DNA of 64,000 bases from Candidatus Brocadia sinica JPN1 (GTDB taxonomy: Bacteria; Planctomycetota; Brocadiia; Brocadiales; Brocadiaceae), in assembly GCF_000949635.1 (NCBI RefSeq), contig NZ_BAFN01000001.1:1240001-1304000 (forward strand), given 5' to 3'. Below, piece by piece: positions 19,264 through 25,995 of the stretch. The position numbers were made by a program, and so were the translations under genes. A model generated the notes under the pieces. That model worked only from the letters and a program-made list of their open reading frames with translations. It was not told where the DNA came from and searched no databases. Numbering within the stretch: position 1 is the first letter of the stretch; each line of letters opens with the position of its first letter.

Positions 19264-20608
19264 GTGAAAAGATAATGAATTAGAAAAGACCCTATGGGCT
19301 GCGGCTGATAAGCTCCGCAACAATATGGACGCAGCCGAGTATAAGCATGTTGTGCTTGATTTGATTTTTTGAAATACATTTCCGATGCCTTTCATGATCT
19401 CTATGAAAAATTGAAGGCCGGAGAAGGTGAATTTGAAGGCGCTGATCCGGAAGATAAAGACGAGTACCTTGCCCATAATATCTTCTTTGTCCCTGAGAAA
19501 GCGCGCTGGCAGTATCTCCAGGATAAGGCAAAAAAACCGGAGATAGGAAAGCTCGTTGATGACGCAATGGATTCCATAGAAAGGCTTAACAGTACTTTAA
19601 AAGGGATTTTGCCAAAAATCTACGCAGACCCCGAATTGAATAAACAACGGCTGGGAGAACTTATTGATCTTATCGGCACTATTGGATTCAACCAAAGTGG
19701 GCATAAGGCAAAGGATTTACTTGGCAGGGTGTATGAATATTTTCTCGGCCAGTTTGCCGATGCCGAAGGGAAAAAAGGGGGTCAATTTTACACACCCGCC
19801 TGCATCGTAAAACTCCTTGTGGAAATGCTTGAACCGTATAAAGGCCGTGTCTATGACGGGTGCTGCGGTTCCGGCGGGATGTTTGTTCAGAGTGAAAAAT
19901 TTATTGAGGAACATGGCGGGCGTATCGGCGATATATCCATATTCGGGCAAGAGTCAAACCCAACAACACTACGCCTTGCCAAGATGAATCTCGCCATTCG
20001 CGGTATTGATGCAAAGATTGAGTCCGGAGACACGTTTCTCCATGACAAACATCCTGATTATTTGAAGGCAGATTTTATCCTCGCCAATCCTCCCTTTAAT
20101 GTGAGCGACTGGAGCGGTGAGCAGCTTCGAGATGATAAAAGGTGGAAATATGGCGTGCCGCCGGCGGGCAATGCCAATTATGCCTGGCTTCAACACTTTG
20201 TGCATAAATTAAGCCCCAACGGCACTGCCGGAATAGTTTTGGCGAACGGAAGTATGAACTCAAACTCCGGCGGTGAAGGAGAAATCCGTCAAAACATGAT
20301 TGAGGCTGGTCTTATTGACTGCATGGTCGCCCTGCCTGCCCAGCTTTTTTATAATACCATGATTCCCGCATGCCTGTGGTTTTTGGCGCGCAATAAGGCG
20401 AATGGAAAATTTCGCAATCGCTCAAATGAAATTCTCTTTATTGATGCCCGGACGATATGTAGGTACTGAGACAGAAGAAGTTGACGGCGTGCCGTTTAAA
20501 GAGAAGATGAACGCGTTGACTTCAAAATTGGCAGAACAATTTGCAAAAGGTGCCGAATTGGAAAGAGAGATAAAAAAGAATCTCAAAGGGATAGGGTATG
20601 AAATTTAA
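19264..20608 (+). pseudogene. hsdM: Broken type I restriction methyltransferase subunit HsdM
   Basis: HsdM sequence starts at [19 protein letters not shown] (about 19280) but needs a one-base shift in a T run near 19370 to join [12 protein letters not shown] possible GTG start at 19264 needs another shift in an A run. The methylase core is readable: [16 protein letters not shown] and the catalytic NPPF in [12 protein letters not shown]. After LFIDAR (20455) the frame runs into PGRYVGTE, so the roughly 60-70 residues that normally lie between those motifs are gone. Both joined segments share the bases GCCCGG, suggesting a microhomology deletion. The C-terminal LAEQFAKGAELEREIKKN remains. Confidence 0.85.
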
Positions 20609-20847: not shown

Positions 20848-21078
20848 ATGACAAAAACTATCCAGGCAGTATTTGAACATGGTGTATTAAGACCATTAGA
20901 ACCAATTGAGGGAATAAGGGAAAATACAGAGGTTGAAATAACTATTGCTTTTAAGCAAAAGGAGGTGTCTCCTATCCTAAGATTTGCTGGGATATTAAGT
21001 GAAGAAGAGGCAAACAGGATGCTAAAAGTAGTGGAAGAGGAATTTGAAAGGGTAAATCCGGATGAATGGAAGGATTAG
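20848..21078 (+). CDS. DUF104 family antitoxin
   Basis: A 76-residue protein beginning MTKTIQAVFEHGVLRPLEPI, the hallmark of the DUF104 (AF2212-like) antitoxin family. It has an acidic C-terminus that likely binds the toxin. The AAAGGAG ribosome site is well placed. It overlaps the downstream PIN toxin gene by 17 bases, the standard antitoxin-first arrangement. It probably neutralises the toxin and represses its own promoter. Confidence 0.85.
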   Translation: MTKTIQAVFEHGVLRPLEPIEGIRENTEVEITIAFKQKEVSPILRFAGILSEEEANRMLKVVEEEFERVNPDEWKD

Positions 21079-21451
21079 CCTTGATACAAATATTGTAATA
21101 CGGTTATTTAAAAATGATCCTGAAATTACTAGGACGCTTGCTGTCGTATCAACCCTTTGTCTTCCGGTGCCTGTAATAGCCGAAATCCTCTTTACTACCA
21201 GAAACTCGTCCCGCCAAAAAGAAAACCTGAAAATCTACAATGAATTTATTGATGTCTGCGATGTGTTAAATATTACACGGAAAACAGCTAATCACTATAG
21301 TTCCATAAGACTAGAATTAAAGCAGAAAGGCCGTCCTATTCCTGAAAATGATTTATGGATTGCATCAATCTGTAGAGAACACAATTTACCTCTTCTTACA
21401 GGAGATGCACATTTTGATAATATAAACGATTTAAGGGTAATTAAATTATAG
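21062..21451 (+). CDS. PIN-domain ribonuclease toxin (VapC-like)
   Basis: A 129-residue PIN-domain protein. The acidic metal-binding residues are visible: D in ISLDTNIVI near residue 8, E in the VIAEIL region near residue 40, D in PENDLWIA near 100, and D in TGDAHFD near 118. All look intact, so the toxin is probably functional. It is translationally coupled to the DUF104 antitoxin. The pair sits between hsdM and hsdS, where accessory toxin-antitoxin genes are common. Confidence 0.85.
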   Translation: MNGRISLDTNIVIRLFKNDPEITRTLAVVSTLCLPVPVIAEILFTTRNSSRQKENLKIYNEFIDVCDVLNITRKTANHYSSIRLELKQKGRPIPENDLWIASICREHNLPLLTGDAHFDNINDLRVIKL

Positions 21452-21580: not shown

Positions 21581-22396
21581 ATGGGTTGTGAAGGTTGGAA
21601 AAAATATATATTTTCTGAGTTTGTTCAAATAAATCCCTCTGTAAGGCTTGAGAGCACAAGAGAATATTCGTTTGTGGAAATGAGAGATTTGAATGAAAGA
21701 AGCAAATTTGTTTATCCTTCAACAAAACGGAAATTGTCTGGTGGTGCTAAATTTCAAAATGGCGATACTTTGTTTGCAAGAATTACCCCTTGCCTAGAGA
21801 ATGGAAAAATATGTCAAGTAAAAGGACTAGAAAGTGGTGTTGGATTTGGTTCTACTGAGTTTTTAGTTTTCCGTAGTAAAGAAGGTGTCTCTGATAGTGA
21901 TTTTGTTTTTTATCTATCACGATATACAGAAGTAAGGCGGTTTGCAGAACAAAATATGCTTGGTACCTCTGGAAGACAGAGAGTTACTTGGGATACTTTT
22001 GACAACTTAGAGCTTGAACTTCCACCTCTTCCTACCCAACGCCGCATTGCTTCTATCCTTTCCGCGCTTGACAACAAAATCGAACTCAACCTTCAGACGA
22101 ATCAGACGTTGGAGGCAATTGCCCAGGCGATATACAAGGAGTGGTTTGTGGATTTCCGCTTCCCCCATTCCCCTCTTGAGGGGTACCCGAAGGGTGGGGT
22201 GGATTCCTCTCTTCATCCATACATGAATGGCGAGGTAAATTCCTTGCAGACAACGCCAACCTCTCTCGCACCATGGCAAAAAAACTCACTTTTCCCGTTC
22301 TGGACTTTGCCAAAAAAACCGCACATTGCAAGAGCGGGCAAAAGAACTGAGAAAACAAGGAATTTTATCAGAAGTTGTATTTTGGAAAACTTTTAA
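21581..22396 (+). pseudogene. hsdS: N-terminal half of type I specificity subunit HsdS, interrupted
   Basis: From ATG 21581, which follows AAGGGG, residues 1-about 195 are an HsdS first target-recognition domain. It ends with the central conserved helix (LPPLPTQRRIASILSALDNKI, then AIYKEWFVDFRFP). The frame then enters an inserted element and reads about 75 residues of out-of-frame sequence to a stop at 22396. The normal linker to the second recognition domain is replaced by the element. The half-subunit could still be made and dimerise, but loss of function is more likely given the damaged hsdM. Confidence 0.8.
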
Positions 22397-22703
22397 AGAC
22401 AAAAAAAAGCTTGGTTGGGATATCGATAGACAAGTTATTATTGGCAATTTTATTGTAGATTTTTTCATTCCGGAACTTGGACTTGTATTTGAGATTGACG
22501 GCTCAAGCCATAACGATAAACAGGAATATGACCAGGAACGCGATGCCTTTTTATCTTCATTACAATTAAAAGTTGTCAGGATTTCTGGCAAAGATGTGCT
22601 TGGGAATATTGGAGGCGTTTGGAGTTTTGTGACAAGGTCGATCAAAGAGAGAGTTGAAGAGTTGAGTCCACCCCGCCCTTCGGGCACCCCTCAAGAGGGG
22701 AAT
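22167..22703. mobile_element. 537-bp element with 40-bp inverted repeats carrying a DUF559 nuclease
   Basis: The ends are 40-bp inverted repeats (22167-22206 and 22664-22703) with 37 of 40 positions identical. Each end contains a short hairpin of its own (CCCCTCTTGAGGGG). Between them lies a DUF559 gene. The element sits exactly in the linker between the two HsdS halves, where uninterrupted HsdS proteins read FxFP, a short linker, then SELGxIPKGW. No transposase is encoded. No clear target duplication was found. Confidence 0.75.
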
Positions 22704-23354
22704 AAATGCGAAATGCAGGACAGTGAACTTGGCCCTATTCCGAAGGGGTGGAGAGTTGTTACATTTGAAGACGAGTTGGAAGCAGAAAGAGGGTTGAGTT
22801 ATAAGGGCAGGGGATTGGCAACAAGTGATGCGGTGCCAATGCATAACTTGAATTCGGTTTACGAAGGTGGTGGCTACAAATTCGAGGGCATTAAGTATTA
22901 CTCGGGTGAATACAAGGAAAAGCACATTGTTCAACCAGGGGATTTGATTATTGCAAATACAGAGCAAGGGCATAAATACTTGTTGATAGGATATCCCGCA
23001 ATCGTTCCTTATGTGTTTGGAGACGTTGGGATTTATAGCCATCATATTTATCGGTTAAGACCAAAACCACATTCTTATTTAACATCGGACTTTTTGTATC
23101 AATTACTCTTGCGACTGGAAATTAGAAAGCAAGTTGTTGGCTTTGCAAACGGCACAACTGTAAATATGCTTAAGATTGAAGGATTGCAAAAGCCAAAATT
23201 CGTCTTGCCACCAAGATATCTGGTCTCGAAATTTTCTGATTTAGCTGCAAGTATTCGATTAAGGCAAGAAGAAAACATCAAACAATCCACCACCCTTTCC
23301 GCCGTCCGTGATGCGTTATTACCAAAATTGATGAGTGGCGAGATAGGAGTATGA
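22326..23354 (+). CDS. DUF559 (VSR-like) nuclease fused in frame to the C-terminal half of HsdS
   Basis: The first 115 residues are a DUF559 domain: RAKELRKQGILSEVVFWK, then IVDFFIPELGLVFEIDGSSH with the PD-(D/E)xK-type acidic residues, then a DxxRDAFL segment. The frame passes through the right inverted repeat (PPRPSGTPQEG) into SELGPIPKGWRV, the standard start of an HsdS second recognition domain. It ends with the conserved LSAVRDALLPKLMSG. The nuclease probably once began at ATG 22273 (MAKKLTFPVLDFAKK). One missing A in the A run near 22312-22318 would explain the broken link to LQERAKEL. Whether TTG 22326 is used is unknown. Confidence 0.75.
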   Translation: MQERAKELRKQGILSEVVFWKTFKDKKKLGWDIDRQVIIGNFIVDFFIPELGLVFEIDGSSHNDKQEYDQERDAFLSSLQLKVVRISGKDVLGNIGGVWSFVTRSIKERVEELSPPRPSGTPQEGNKCEMQDSELGPIPKGWRVVTFEDELEAERGLSYKGRGLATSDAVPMHNLNSVYEGGGYKFEGIKYYSGEYKEKHIVQPGDLIIANTEQGHKYLLIGYPAIVPYVFGDVGIYSHHIYRLRPKPHSYLTSDFLYQLLLRLEIRKQVVGFANGTTVNMLKIEGLQKPKFVLPPRYLVSKFSDLAASIRLRQEENIKQSTTLSAVRDALLPKLMSGEIGV

Positions 23355-23447: not shown

Positions 23448-24460
23448 ATGAATTCCAAAAATAGAAATAATGAAATTGTTCTTTATACCTCTGAAAAGGG
23501 CAATGTCTGTGTTGAAGTCCTTTTTCAGAATGAAAACTTTTGGTTAACCCAAAAGGCTATGGCAGAACTTTTCGGCGTTGAAATTCCTGCTATAAGCAAG
23601 CACCTTGCCAACATTTATGAAAGTAACGAGCTTTCTCAGGAAGCAACTCTTTCCATTTTGGAAACAGTTCGGGATGAAGGCTCCCGCAAGGTCAGACGTA
23701 AACTGGAATATTACAATCTTGATGCCATTATTGCGGTGGGTTACAGAGTTAATAGTTATCAGGCAACTCAGTTCCGTATCTGGGCAACCAAAACTCTCAA
23801 AGAATTTATAATTAAAGGTTTTGTCCTTGACGACGAAAGGCTCAAACAAGGCAACGTTTTGGGAAAGATTATTTCGATGAACTCCTGGAACGTATTCGCG
23901 AAATCCGGGCAAGTGAACGCCGATTCTATCAGAAAATTACAGATATTTACGCCCTTTCAGTTGATTACGATAAAAATTCTCCGATTACTAAAGATTTTTT
24001 TGCAACGGTTCAGAATAAACTGCATTGGGCGATAACAGGCAAAACCGCGGCGGAGATTATTTATACAAATGCGGATGCGACAAAATTGTATATGGAATTA
24101 ACCCACTGGAAGCAATCTCCTGAAGGAAAGATACTCAAATCAGATGTTAGCATTGCCAAGAATTATTTAAGCGAACAACATATTAAGGAACTCAACCGGA
24201 TTGTTTCTGCCTACTTAGATTTGGCGGAGAACCGGGCGCAGCGGCAGATAGTAATGAAGATGACGGACTGGATTCAGTTTTTACATAATTTTCTGGAATT
24301 ATCCAATTATCCGATCCTGGAAGATAAAGGCAAAATTAGTATGTTAGAAGCTAAGTTGAAAGCAGAACAAGAGTACGAAGTTTACCGAAAAATTCAGGAT
24401 AAAAATTACATCTCTGATTTTGATCGGGAAATAAAAAAGATTGAAGGGAAAAATGAGTAA
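23448..24460 (+). pseudogene. RhuM-family protein, frameshifted
   Basis: The N-terminal frame (23448-about 23855) has the RhuM start, with VLFQNENFWLTQKAMAELF and RKVRRKLEYYNLDAIIAVGY. Around 23858 one base is missing (GGCAACGTTTTGGG instead of a codon run giving NRFGKDYF), and the homology continues in another frame: DELLERIREIRASER, then HWAITGKTAAEIIYTNADA, to the stop at 24460. The family is often found inside type I restriction loci; its molecular role is unclear. No hsdR follows, only an insertion sequence. The 95-bp gap after hsdS holds only short fragments. Confidence 0.8.
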
Positions 24461-24589: not shown

Positions 24590-24756
24590 TCAGTGGAGCG
24601 TAGAGCCCGAGAGTGAGTCTGACTTGGACATTGCGTGGAACCAGAAACTGTAGCCAGACGTGACAGGAATTCTTTGGTAAAGCAAAGAGCACGCGAACCA
24701 GAATCAAAACGAAAGCAATGTCTTCCGTTGTGCGTAACAAAAGAAAGGAGGTTGTG
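24590..24756 (+). ncRNA. Candidate IS110 bridge RNA in the transposase leader
   Basis: About 275 noncoding bases precede the transposase start. A possible -10 (TATACT, about 24548) lies upstream, and stem-forming segments follow, for example GTCTG at 24617-24621 pairing with CAGAC at 24655-24659. IS110-group elements such as IS621 express a bridge RNA of about 180 nt from this position, which specifies target and donor. The location is a match by position; loop guides were not worked out. Confidence 0.4.
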
Positions 24757-25995
24757 ATGGATATCATTAATAAATGTTGTTGTGGGCTGGATGTCCACAA
24801 GGAAAAGGTGGTAGCGTGCCTGAGAAAGATCGGCAGTGATGGCAAGTGCCACACAGAGAAACGGACGTATTTGACCGTAACGAAGGAGTTGCTTGCGTTG
24901 TCCGACTGGATGGCCAGTGAGGGGGTAACCCATGTGGCGATGGAGTCCACCGGGGTATATTGGAAACCTATCTGGAATATCTTGGAAGGGGGATTTACTG
25001 TATTGCTGGTGAATGCAAGACACATCAAGCAGGTTCCTGGACGGAAAACAGACATGAAGGACTGCGAATGGATTGCGCAATTGCTTCAACACGGACTCTT
25101 GAATCCGAGTTTTGTGTCTTCCACGCCTATCCGGGAATTGCGTGATTTGACACGGCATCGGGCCAAAGTAATTGGAGAACGGGCTGCCGTAGCGAATCGG
25201 ATCCAAAAGACGCTGGAAGATGCCAATATTAAATTGGCATCGGTTGCGACTGACGTTATGGGGGTATCTGGCCGCACGATGTTGAAAGCGATAATATCCG
25301 GCCAGGAAGACCCGAAGGTATTGGCCAATCTTGCTCAGAGACGTTTGCGGGAAAAGATACCCCAACTGAAGCTTGCCCTCGAAGGGCGGGTGACCGGGCA
25401 TCACCGGTTTATGTTGGAAACGTTGCTTGACCAGTGGGAATACCTTGAATCTCTGGTCAAACGATTGGATGATAGAATAGAGGAAGTCATGCGCCCTTTT
25501 GAGGAATCGGTGGAGTTGTTGAAGGGCATCCCCGGTGTTGAACAACGTACCGCCGAGAATCTTATAGCCGAAATTGGCAACAATATGGCTCAGTTCCCTT
25601 CCGCTGAGCATTTGGCATCGTGGGCAGGGATGTGTCCTGGCAACAATGAAAGCGCTGGCAAAAGGAAAAGTGGCGCTACGCCAAAAGGCAACCGATGGCT
25701 TCGCAGAACCCTGAATCAATCCACCTGGGCTGCCAGCCATACCAAAAACACTTATCTCTCCGCCCAGTACCGAAGGCTTGCATCCCGACGCGGGAAGAAA
25801 CGAGCAATTGTTGCCGTTGGTCATACAATCCTTACTATAGTTTATCATATGCTGAAACACAGAGTATCATACCATGAGTTAGGAAACAATTACTTCGACC
25901 ATCTCAATTCTGAAAACTTGAAACGTTACCTTGTTAAACGTCTTGAAAAACTAGGACATAAAGTTACTTTAGAGCCTTTAAAAGAAGTCGCCTAA
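24757..25995 (+). CDS. IS110-family transposase (recombinase)
   Basis: A 412-residue protein from ATG 24757, which has an AAAGGAGG ribosome site. The N-terminal RuvC-like DEDD domain begins CCCGLDVHKEKVVACL and continues through AMESTGVYWKPI and the KTDMKDCEWIA aspartates. The C-terminal Transposase_20 region has LLKGIPGVEQRTAENLIAE, FPSAEHLASWAGMCPGNNES and SGATPKGNRWLRR with the catalytic serine region. All domains look complete, so the element may be active. It recombines circular donor and target DNA in an RNA-guided way according to recent work on the family. Confidence 0.92.
   Translation: MDIINKCCCGLDVHKEKVVACLRKIGSDGKCHTEKRTYLTVTKELLALSDWMASEGVTHVAMESTGVYWKPIWNILEGGFTVLLVNARHIKQVPGRKTDMKDCEWIAQLLQHGLLNPSFVSSTPIRELRDLTRHRAKVIGERAAVANRIQKTLEDANIKLASVATDVMGVSGRTMLKAIISGQEDPKVLANLAQRRLREKIPQLKLALEGRVTGHHRFMLETLLDQWEYLESLVKRLDDRIEEVMRPFEESVELLKGIPGVEQRTAENLIAEIGNNMAQFPSAEHLASWAGMCPGNNESAGKRKSGATPKGNRWLRRTLNQSTWAASHTKNTYLSAQYRRLASRRGKKRAIVAVGHTILTIVYHMLKHRVSYHELGNNYFDHLNSENLKRYLVKRLEKLGHKVTLEPLKEVA

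Follow-up and report, generated by a model that had tools for sequence, protein, structure and literature searches.

The window (i.e., the whole stretch of DNA analysed here, 64,000 nt of Candidatus Brocadia sinica JPN1; GCF_000949635.1, NZ_BAFN01000001.1, positions 1,240,001–1,304,000 of the forward strand) carries an hsdS gene in which an element of 537 nt (22167–22703) is seated in the linker between the two recognition domains (TRD1 and TRD2) of the encoded protein (Table 1). The element is bounded by inverted arms of 49 nt each (22167–22215 and 22655–22703), which are 90% complementary according to a repeat search of the window; a count from the sequence gives 37 matches within their outer 40 nt. 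DUF559 (PF04480) is the sole gene recognised by Pfam between these arms, and neither the ORF list nor Pfam reveals any transposase in the element interior. On both points, the near-identical inverted ends and the lone nuclease gene, the initial annotation was right. The left ORF, with TRD1 (Methylase_S), extends to AIYKEWFVDFRFP, a motif of the linker. Beyond the element, HsdS picks up again in its right half at MQDSELGPIPKGW, DUF559 and TRD2 (Methylase_S) being encoded together by the ORF 22326–23354. With up to two mismatches, CCCCTCTTGAGGGG is matched five times in the window for 0.23 matches expected, and the 34-nt unit is found at the two element ends only across the 4.08-Mb genome, which excludes a chance origin of the end repeats. 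Finally, a promoter scan around the element returned one weak site for 5.1 expected, so that nothing supports a promoter of its own.

Table 1. Features of the interrupted hsdS locus (positions in the window).
Feature	Position	Strand	Evidence and remarks
hsdM remnant, N-terminus short, C-terminal part lost or frame-shifted	19369–20469	+	ORFs, Pfam, PADLOC
HsdS N-terminal half: TRD1 and conserved helix, ending ...KEWFVDFRFP	21581–22165	+	Methylase_S E 3.7e-13, translation
ORF of the HsdS N-terminal half, entering the element	stop at 22396	+	Translation
Left palindromic unit, ATTCCCCTC-TTGA-GGGG-TACCCGAAGGGTGGGGTGGA	22167–22203	+	Inverted-repeat match reaches 22215
Segment from left unit to DUF559 domain	22204–22316	+	Open and in HsdS frame in relatives; window reads ...LQTTPTSLAPWQKNSLFPFWTLPK
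A7 run, 1-nt frameshift parting TRD1 from DUF559	22312–22318	+	Comparison with relatives
DUF559 nuclease domain	22317–22673	+	PF04480 E 1.1e-20, alignment, predicted fold (pLDDT 90.7)
Right palindromic unit, ATTCCCCTCTTGAGGGGTGCCCGAAGGGCGGGGTGGA, inverted	22667–22703	-	Inverted-repeat match begins at 22655
HsdS C-terminal half (MQDSELGPIPKGW..., TRD2), in DUF559 frame	22704–23354	+	Methylase_S E 1.2e-5, PADLOC Specificity_I E 5e-72

The surrounding R-M system has probably decayed in the window. The hsdM remnant (19369–20608) has a first ORF that ends at 20469, while its usual C-terminal motif is read in a different frame, starting around 20447, and there is no hsdR among the ORFs listed near this remnant. 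Genes for an AF2212-like antitoxin and a PIN toxin lie between hsdM and hsdS (20848–21451, Pfam). On the other side, a RhuM family gene is found in two ORFs (23448–24460) one of which matches the N-terminal and the other the C-terminal part of its Pfam profile (a longer RhuM-like ORF follows hsdS in the related locus L004), then a 425-aa ORF (24718–25995) that may encode an IS110-family transposase.

Regarding the insertion, the initial annotation would have been refuted by intact HsdS proteins with this domain at the same position and had suggested looking for an uninterrupted allele. It is not refuted in this way: intact HsdS proteins are devoid of DUF559, and one of them, an ORF of 558 aa from the same family (L164, genome G323), has an element-free linker that reads GATTTCCGCTTCCCC / GGCTCCACCGGT / GAAATGCAGGACAG (also given as CTTCCCC / GGCTCCACCGGT / GAAATGCAGGACAG) where the window has its 537-nt element. 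This clean empty site, from a species other than that of the window and with a 12-nt filler, and a second intact linker (L169) show that a discrete element has been inserted into the linker of HsdS. The loci compared include no pair of near-identical strains differing by the element, from which a target-site duplication could be defined.

The same linker is occupied in five Brocadiaceae copies, i.e., the window, L004, L012, L013 and L014, and in the latter four, a single open frame runs from TRD1 through the units and DUF559 to TRD2 (590 aa in L004, 593 aa in L014). Where the window has seven A, three of these relatives have six (L004, L012 and L014) and the last one AAAGAA (L013). Because the relatives read through and the window has one extra A in the run, whether by mutation or by assembly error, both the split of hsdS and the nuclease–TRD2 fusion are secondary. 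The annotated position in the linker and the in-frame right half stand, but the gene was not split by the insertion itself, and the fusion arose through a frameshift that came later in this copy, the relatives having TRD1–DUF559–TRD2 instead. Frameshifted and lying beside a damaged hsdM, the window copy of the element may be inactive. Among the five copies, the DUF559 domains are 85–94% identical, while identity is 25–28% for TRD1 proper (three copies with a full TRD1) and 31–40% for TRD2, except between the window and L004 (93%). As DUF559 is highly alike and the TRDs are divergent, the latter have been exchanged while the element between them stayed constant; the element may promote such exchange or may just sit in the usual crossover region.

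The DUF559 domain of the window is recognised with 73.9 bits for a gathering cut-off of 20.6, and the residues E19, D48, E59, D61, H65 and D72 (numbered from 22317) are at or near invariance in an alignment of 67 sequences. This retention of catalytic-type residues predicts an active enzyme within the DUF559 family. The solved structure closest to its predicted fold is the DUF559 protein 3hrl, followed by the catalytic domain of I-Bth0305I (Foldseek E 3.4e-4, TM 0.59) and, more weakly, by Vsr; the profile match to I-Bth0305I (3r3p) has an E of 4e-4. I-Bth0305I represents the EDxHD homing family (PMC3943268). From this similarity of fold and from the distribution described below, we infer a putative homing role for the nuclease.

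The initial annotation had described the element ends as TIRs; rather than simple transposon TIRs, they are composite, REP-like palindromic units, of which single, tandem and dispersed copies are also seen. Each follows the plan TTCCCCTC-nnnn-GAGGGG, with CCCCTC-nnnn-GAGGGG as the first hairpin, followed by a spacer that may be a second hairpin and by a further G-run (GGGGTGG); a C-arm, a G-arm and a second G-run would characterise the class of palindromes proposed as partners of DUF559. Tandem unit pairs are seen at one end of the element in relatives (right end in L004, left end in L012), with two variants of the inner hairpin, and further classes from evenly drawn genomes, e.g., CCCTCTCCC...GGGAGAGGGTTGGGGTGAGGG, have the same plan of a hairpin followed by a further G-run. 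In DNA folding, the advantage of the two window units over shuffled sequences is slight (z -0.55 and -1.77), while that of other unit classes is strong (z -3.3 and -4.6). Dispersed units reach 87 copies per genome (0 for reversed-pattern controls), this maximum occurring in G313 (the genome of L025) along with two DUF559 genes; some units are far from any DUF559, and some genomes have units but no close matching nuclease. In G313, many units are arranged as adjacent outward-facing pairs, about 30–50 nt apart and with differing inner hairpins, which resemble BIME/REPIN doublets. An exact unit scan of viral contigs and a search of plasmids with the element gave no match, and among viral DUF559 relatives, the nearest, and the only close one, is 51% identical.

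To what extent the pairing of DUF559 with palindromes is general was examined at 80 loci from many phyla retrieved by a DUF559 protein search, and end repeats, whose absence from other DUF559 loci would have refuted the initial annotation, were found at many of them. In a motif test, inward-facing units were present on both sides of 51 of 79 DUF559 loci versus none of 1459 control positions taken from these loci, on one side of 17 (versus 39 of the 1459 controls), and 11 of the 79 had no recognisable unit. An independent test, free of motif and seed, relied on an inverted-repeat alignment score of at least 36 in evenly drawn genomes. This score was reached by 10 of 11 DUF559 genes in Planctomycetota (leaving out L211, which lacks a repeat) versus 2 of 123 controls and by 15 of 22 in Pseudomonadota versus 3 of 234 controls, some loci of the latter phylum having no inverted repeat; pooled, the figures are 25/33 and 5/357. 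This points to the DUF559 family, which Pfam still lists as being of unknown function, as the partner of a class of palindromic repeats that is very common in bacteria. In the open-access literature, we found no paper linking DUF559 with palindromes, or palindromes with Vsr or other nucleases; an earlier description elsewhere is possible.

DUF559 and its units are inserted in frame in several other proteins: QueA (at two sites), HydF, Type ISP, Eco57I/MmeI-type and Mod proteins, as well as an HsdM ORF that is incomplete at the edge of its stretch. Across species, the QueA sites exist in empty, solitary-unit and full states. In the cleanest alignments of elements from the two sites (L036 with L037, L040 with L058), homology starts 3–4 nt before TTCCCC and ends 1–2 nt after GGGGAA; between L044 and L052, it ends 3 nt after GGGGAA. 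Since homology of elements at different QueA sites thus stops no more than a few bases from the palindromes, the mobile unit is palindrome–nuclease–palindrome. Moreover, one queA gene (L048) harbours two copies that are 78% identical over 443 nucleotide columns and bounded by units; together with the cross-site alignments, it provides the best evidence, as read from sequence comparison, that the three parts move as one. Another QueA sequence (L058, 3152–3300) reads CAAAGTTCCTCTTTGAAATTATCA at site 1, which may be the scar of a lost element, and the QueA of L049 (3083–4864) combines a full element with solitary in-frame units elsewhere, including at a third site (FDAIKSSPLARGVACETRRGVAHEITLH). 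An AlphaFold model of a QueA–DUF559 fusion, built from 14 sequences, was of poor quality (pLDDT 51) and left unused.

In our opinion, these observations are probably best explained by a compact homing-like element, in which a DUF559 gene lies between two inward-facing REP-like units and which inserts in frame without splicing. The comparisons show the mobile unit with its ends, its in-frame insertion, the association of units with DUF559 and the joint inheritance of unit class and nuclease lineage, while mobilisation by the nuclease is inferred. Insertion would occur into tolerant loops or linkers of protein genes, with the host frame open through both units and the nuclease, and translation would yield a host protein that includes the insert. 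The nuclease would recognise its own unit or an empty target, then nick or cut it, and repair or replication of the break would copy unit and nuclease into the new site; insertions keeping the frame would survive selection, and solitary units would be non-autonomous copies or remnants. In HsdS, the element would have entered the linker in an ancestor of the Brocadiaceae or spread among HsdS alleles and, owing to its seat between two recognition domains, would stay in place during the exchange of TRD1 and TRD2.

Alternatively, the palindromes could be MITE- or REP-like repeats moved by a trans-acting transposase or by host replication and repair, with DUF559 as a frequent cargo. This would account for the genomes in which units outnumber DUF559 genes, G313 being the extreme, and for the units far from any such gene, yet DUF559 is the gene common to unit pairs across phyla. 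The classes of units also bear on this point. On the DUF559 tree, which was computed from 113 columns and has many unresolved forks, 21 changes of unit class are needed, versus 46.6 in shuffles (minimum 40 over 300 shuffles), the classes having been defined after seeing the data. The genome of the window itself has three unit classes beside three DUF559 lineages, and three other genomes (G294, G296 and G303) likewise have differing classes beside differing lineages. Because a single genome carries different classes beside different lineages, host taxonomy does not explain the class pattern. Across 33 Brocadiaceae genomes, the median number of class-B units is 13 with a class-B nuclease (called at an identity of at least 57%) versus 3 without (p 0.0013, kinship ignored). 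By these comparisons, unit class follows the nuclease lineage rather than the host, and unit and nuclease are inherited together, which argues against a mere cargo and makes this alternative unlikely. At L008 and L009 (G000 C1, around 3620485 and 3624686), two DUF559 copies lie 4.2 kb apart, with a nucleotide identity of 87% that starts at the left unit.

A classical homing endonuclease gene, which would cut the empty hsdS or queA allele and be copied by homologous repair, the palindromes being incidental or protecting the ends, would fit the fold and profile similarity to I-Bth0305I, the repeated occupation of the same sites in related species and the high conservation of the element amid variable TRDs. 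However, the elements of one subclade occupy two different, non-homologous queA sites, and dispersed solitary units exist, so that allelic homing alone is insufficient and, as a full account, improbable. A domesticated R-M module, which selection would keep either for the nuclease that it adds to HsdS or for its role as a hub promoting TRD exchange, is very unlikely, for in spite of the open frame with conserved catalytic residues in four relatives, the frequency of R-M genes among the hosts and the exchange of TRDs around the element, the same kind of units resides in QueA and HydF, the window copy bears a frameshift and has a damaged hsdM next to it, and an intact member of the family lacks the insert (L164).

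The homing-like element that we favour shares traits with several known systems. As with RAYTs (TnpA_REP) and their REPs or REPINs, one nuclease gene is flanked by inverted palindromes, solitary repeats of matching class are dispersed, and repeat class tracks enzyme lineage. In contrast, the enzyme has a Vsr/EDxHD fold (DUF559) and is not a Y1 HUH transposase, the GTAG/CGTC tag of REPs is absent beside the hairpin of the element (TTCCCCTC...GAGGGG...GGGGTGG), and the units associated with DUF559 are often inside coding frames. In this last respect, they recall the Rickettsia palindromic elements, found in frame within unrelated protein genes (PMC10969869, PMC3733652) and compared here by description, since the DUF559-associated palindromes are in frame in HsdS, QueA, HydF, Mod, ISP and others; the DUF559 element differs in carrying its own nuclease gene and in spanning several phyla. 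With I-Bth0305I and other EDxHD homing endonucleases, it has in common the nuclease fold (by profile and structure) and the occupation of conserved sites in host genes, but it is flanked by palindromes and is expected not to be spliced, no intron or intein was seen, and Pfam detects no extra DNA-binding domain. Inteins with a homing nuclease also encode the enzyme in frame within a host protein; Pfam shows only DUF559 and host domains here, without any Hint splicing domain, and the intein reading was rejected on this ground; the insert would remain in the host protein. A reading as an IS or a transposon was likewise discarded, as there is no transposase between the inverted ends. Finally, NGO0050 (3hrl) and PRK09767 belong to the same DUF559 domain family as the nuclease of the element, but are free-standing proteins with no function assigned in the libraries used.

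We also consider, as a possibility falling somewhat short of an even chance, that DUF559 proteins are the autonomous partners of a very large class of dispersed palindromes across phyla, including the CCCTCTCCC...GGGAGAGGGTTGGGGTGAGGG type, that they spread both the units and themselves by neither HUH nor DDE chemistry, and that, inserting in frame into proteins, they represent a nuclease-driven, non-splicing, intein-like class of mobile element. The homing-like element favoured above already offers a likely role for the DUF559 family and a candidate mover for the palindromic repeats seen in many bacterial genomes. Since the element inserts in frame in QueA and HydF without a splicing domain, these hosts are expected to contain an inserted nuclease domain, and in HsdS it is the constant part around which recognition domains are exchanged. 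Solitary in-frame units are further observed in two ORFs of 659 and 574 aa (L195, G000 C1:1849133–1855253), which are presumably Type III R-M-like, and these units are of the same class as those beside a nearby DUF559 gene.
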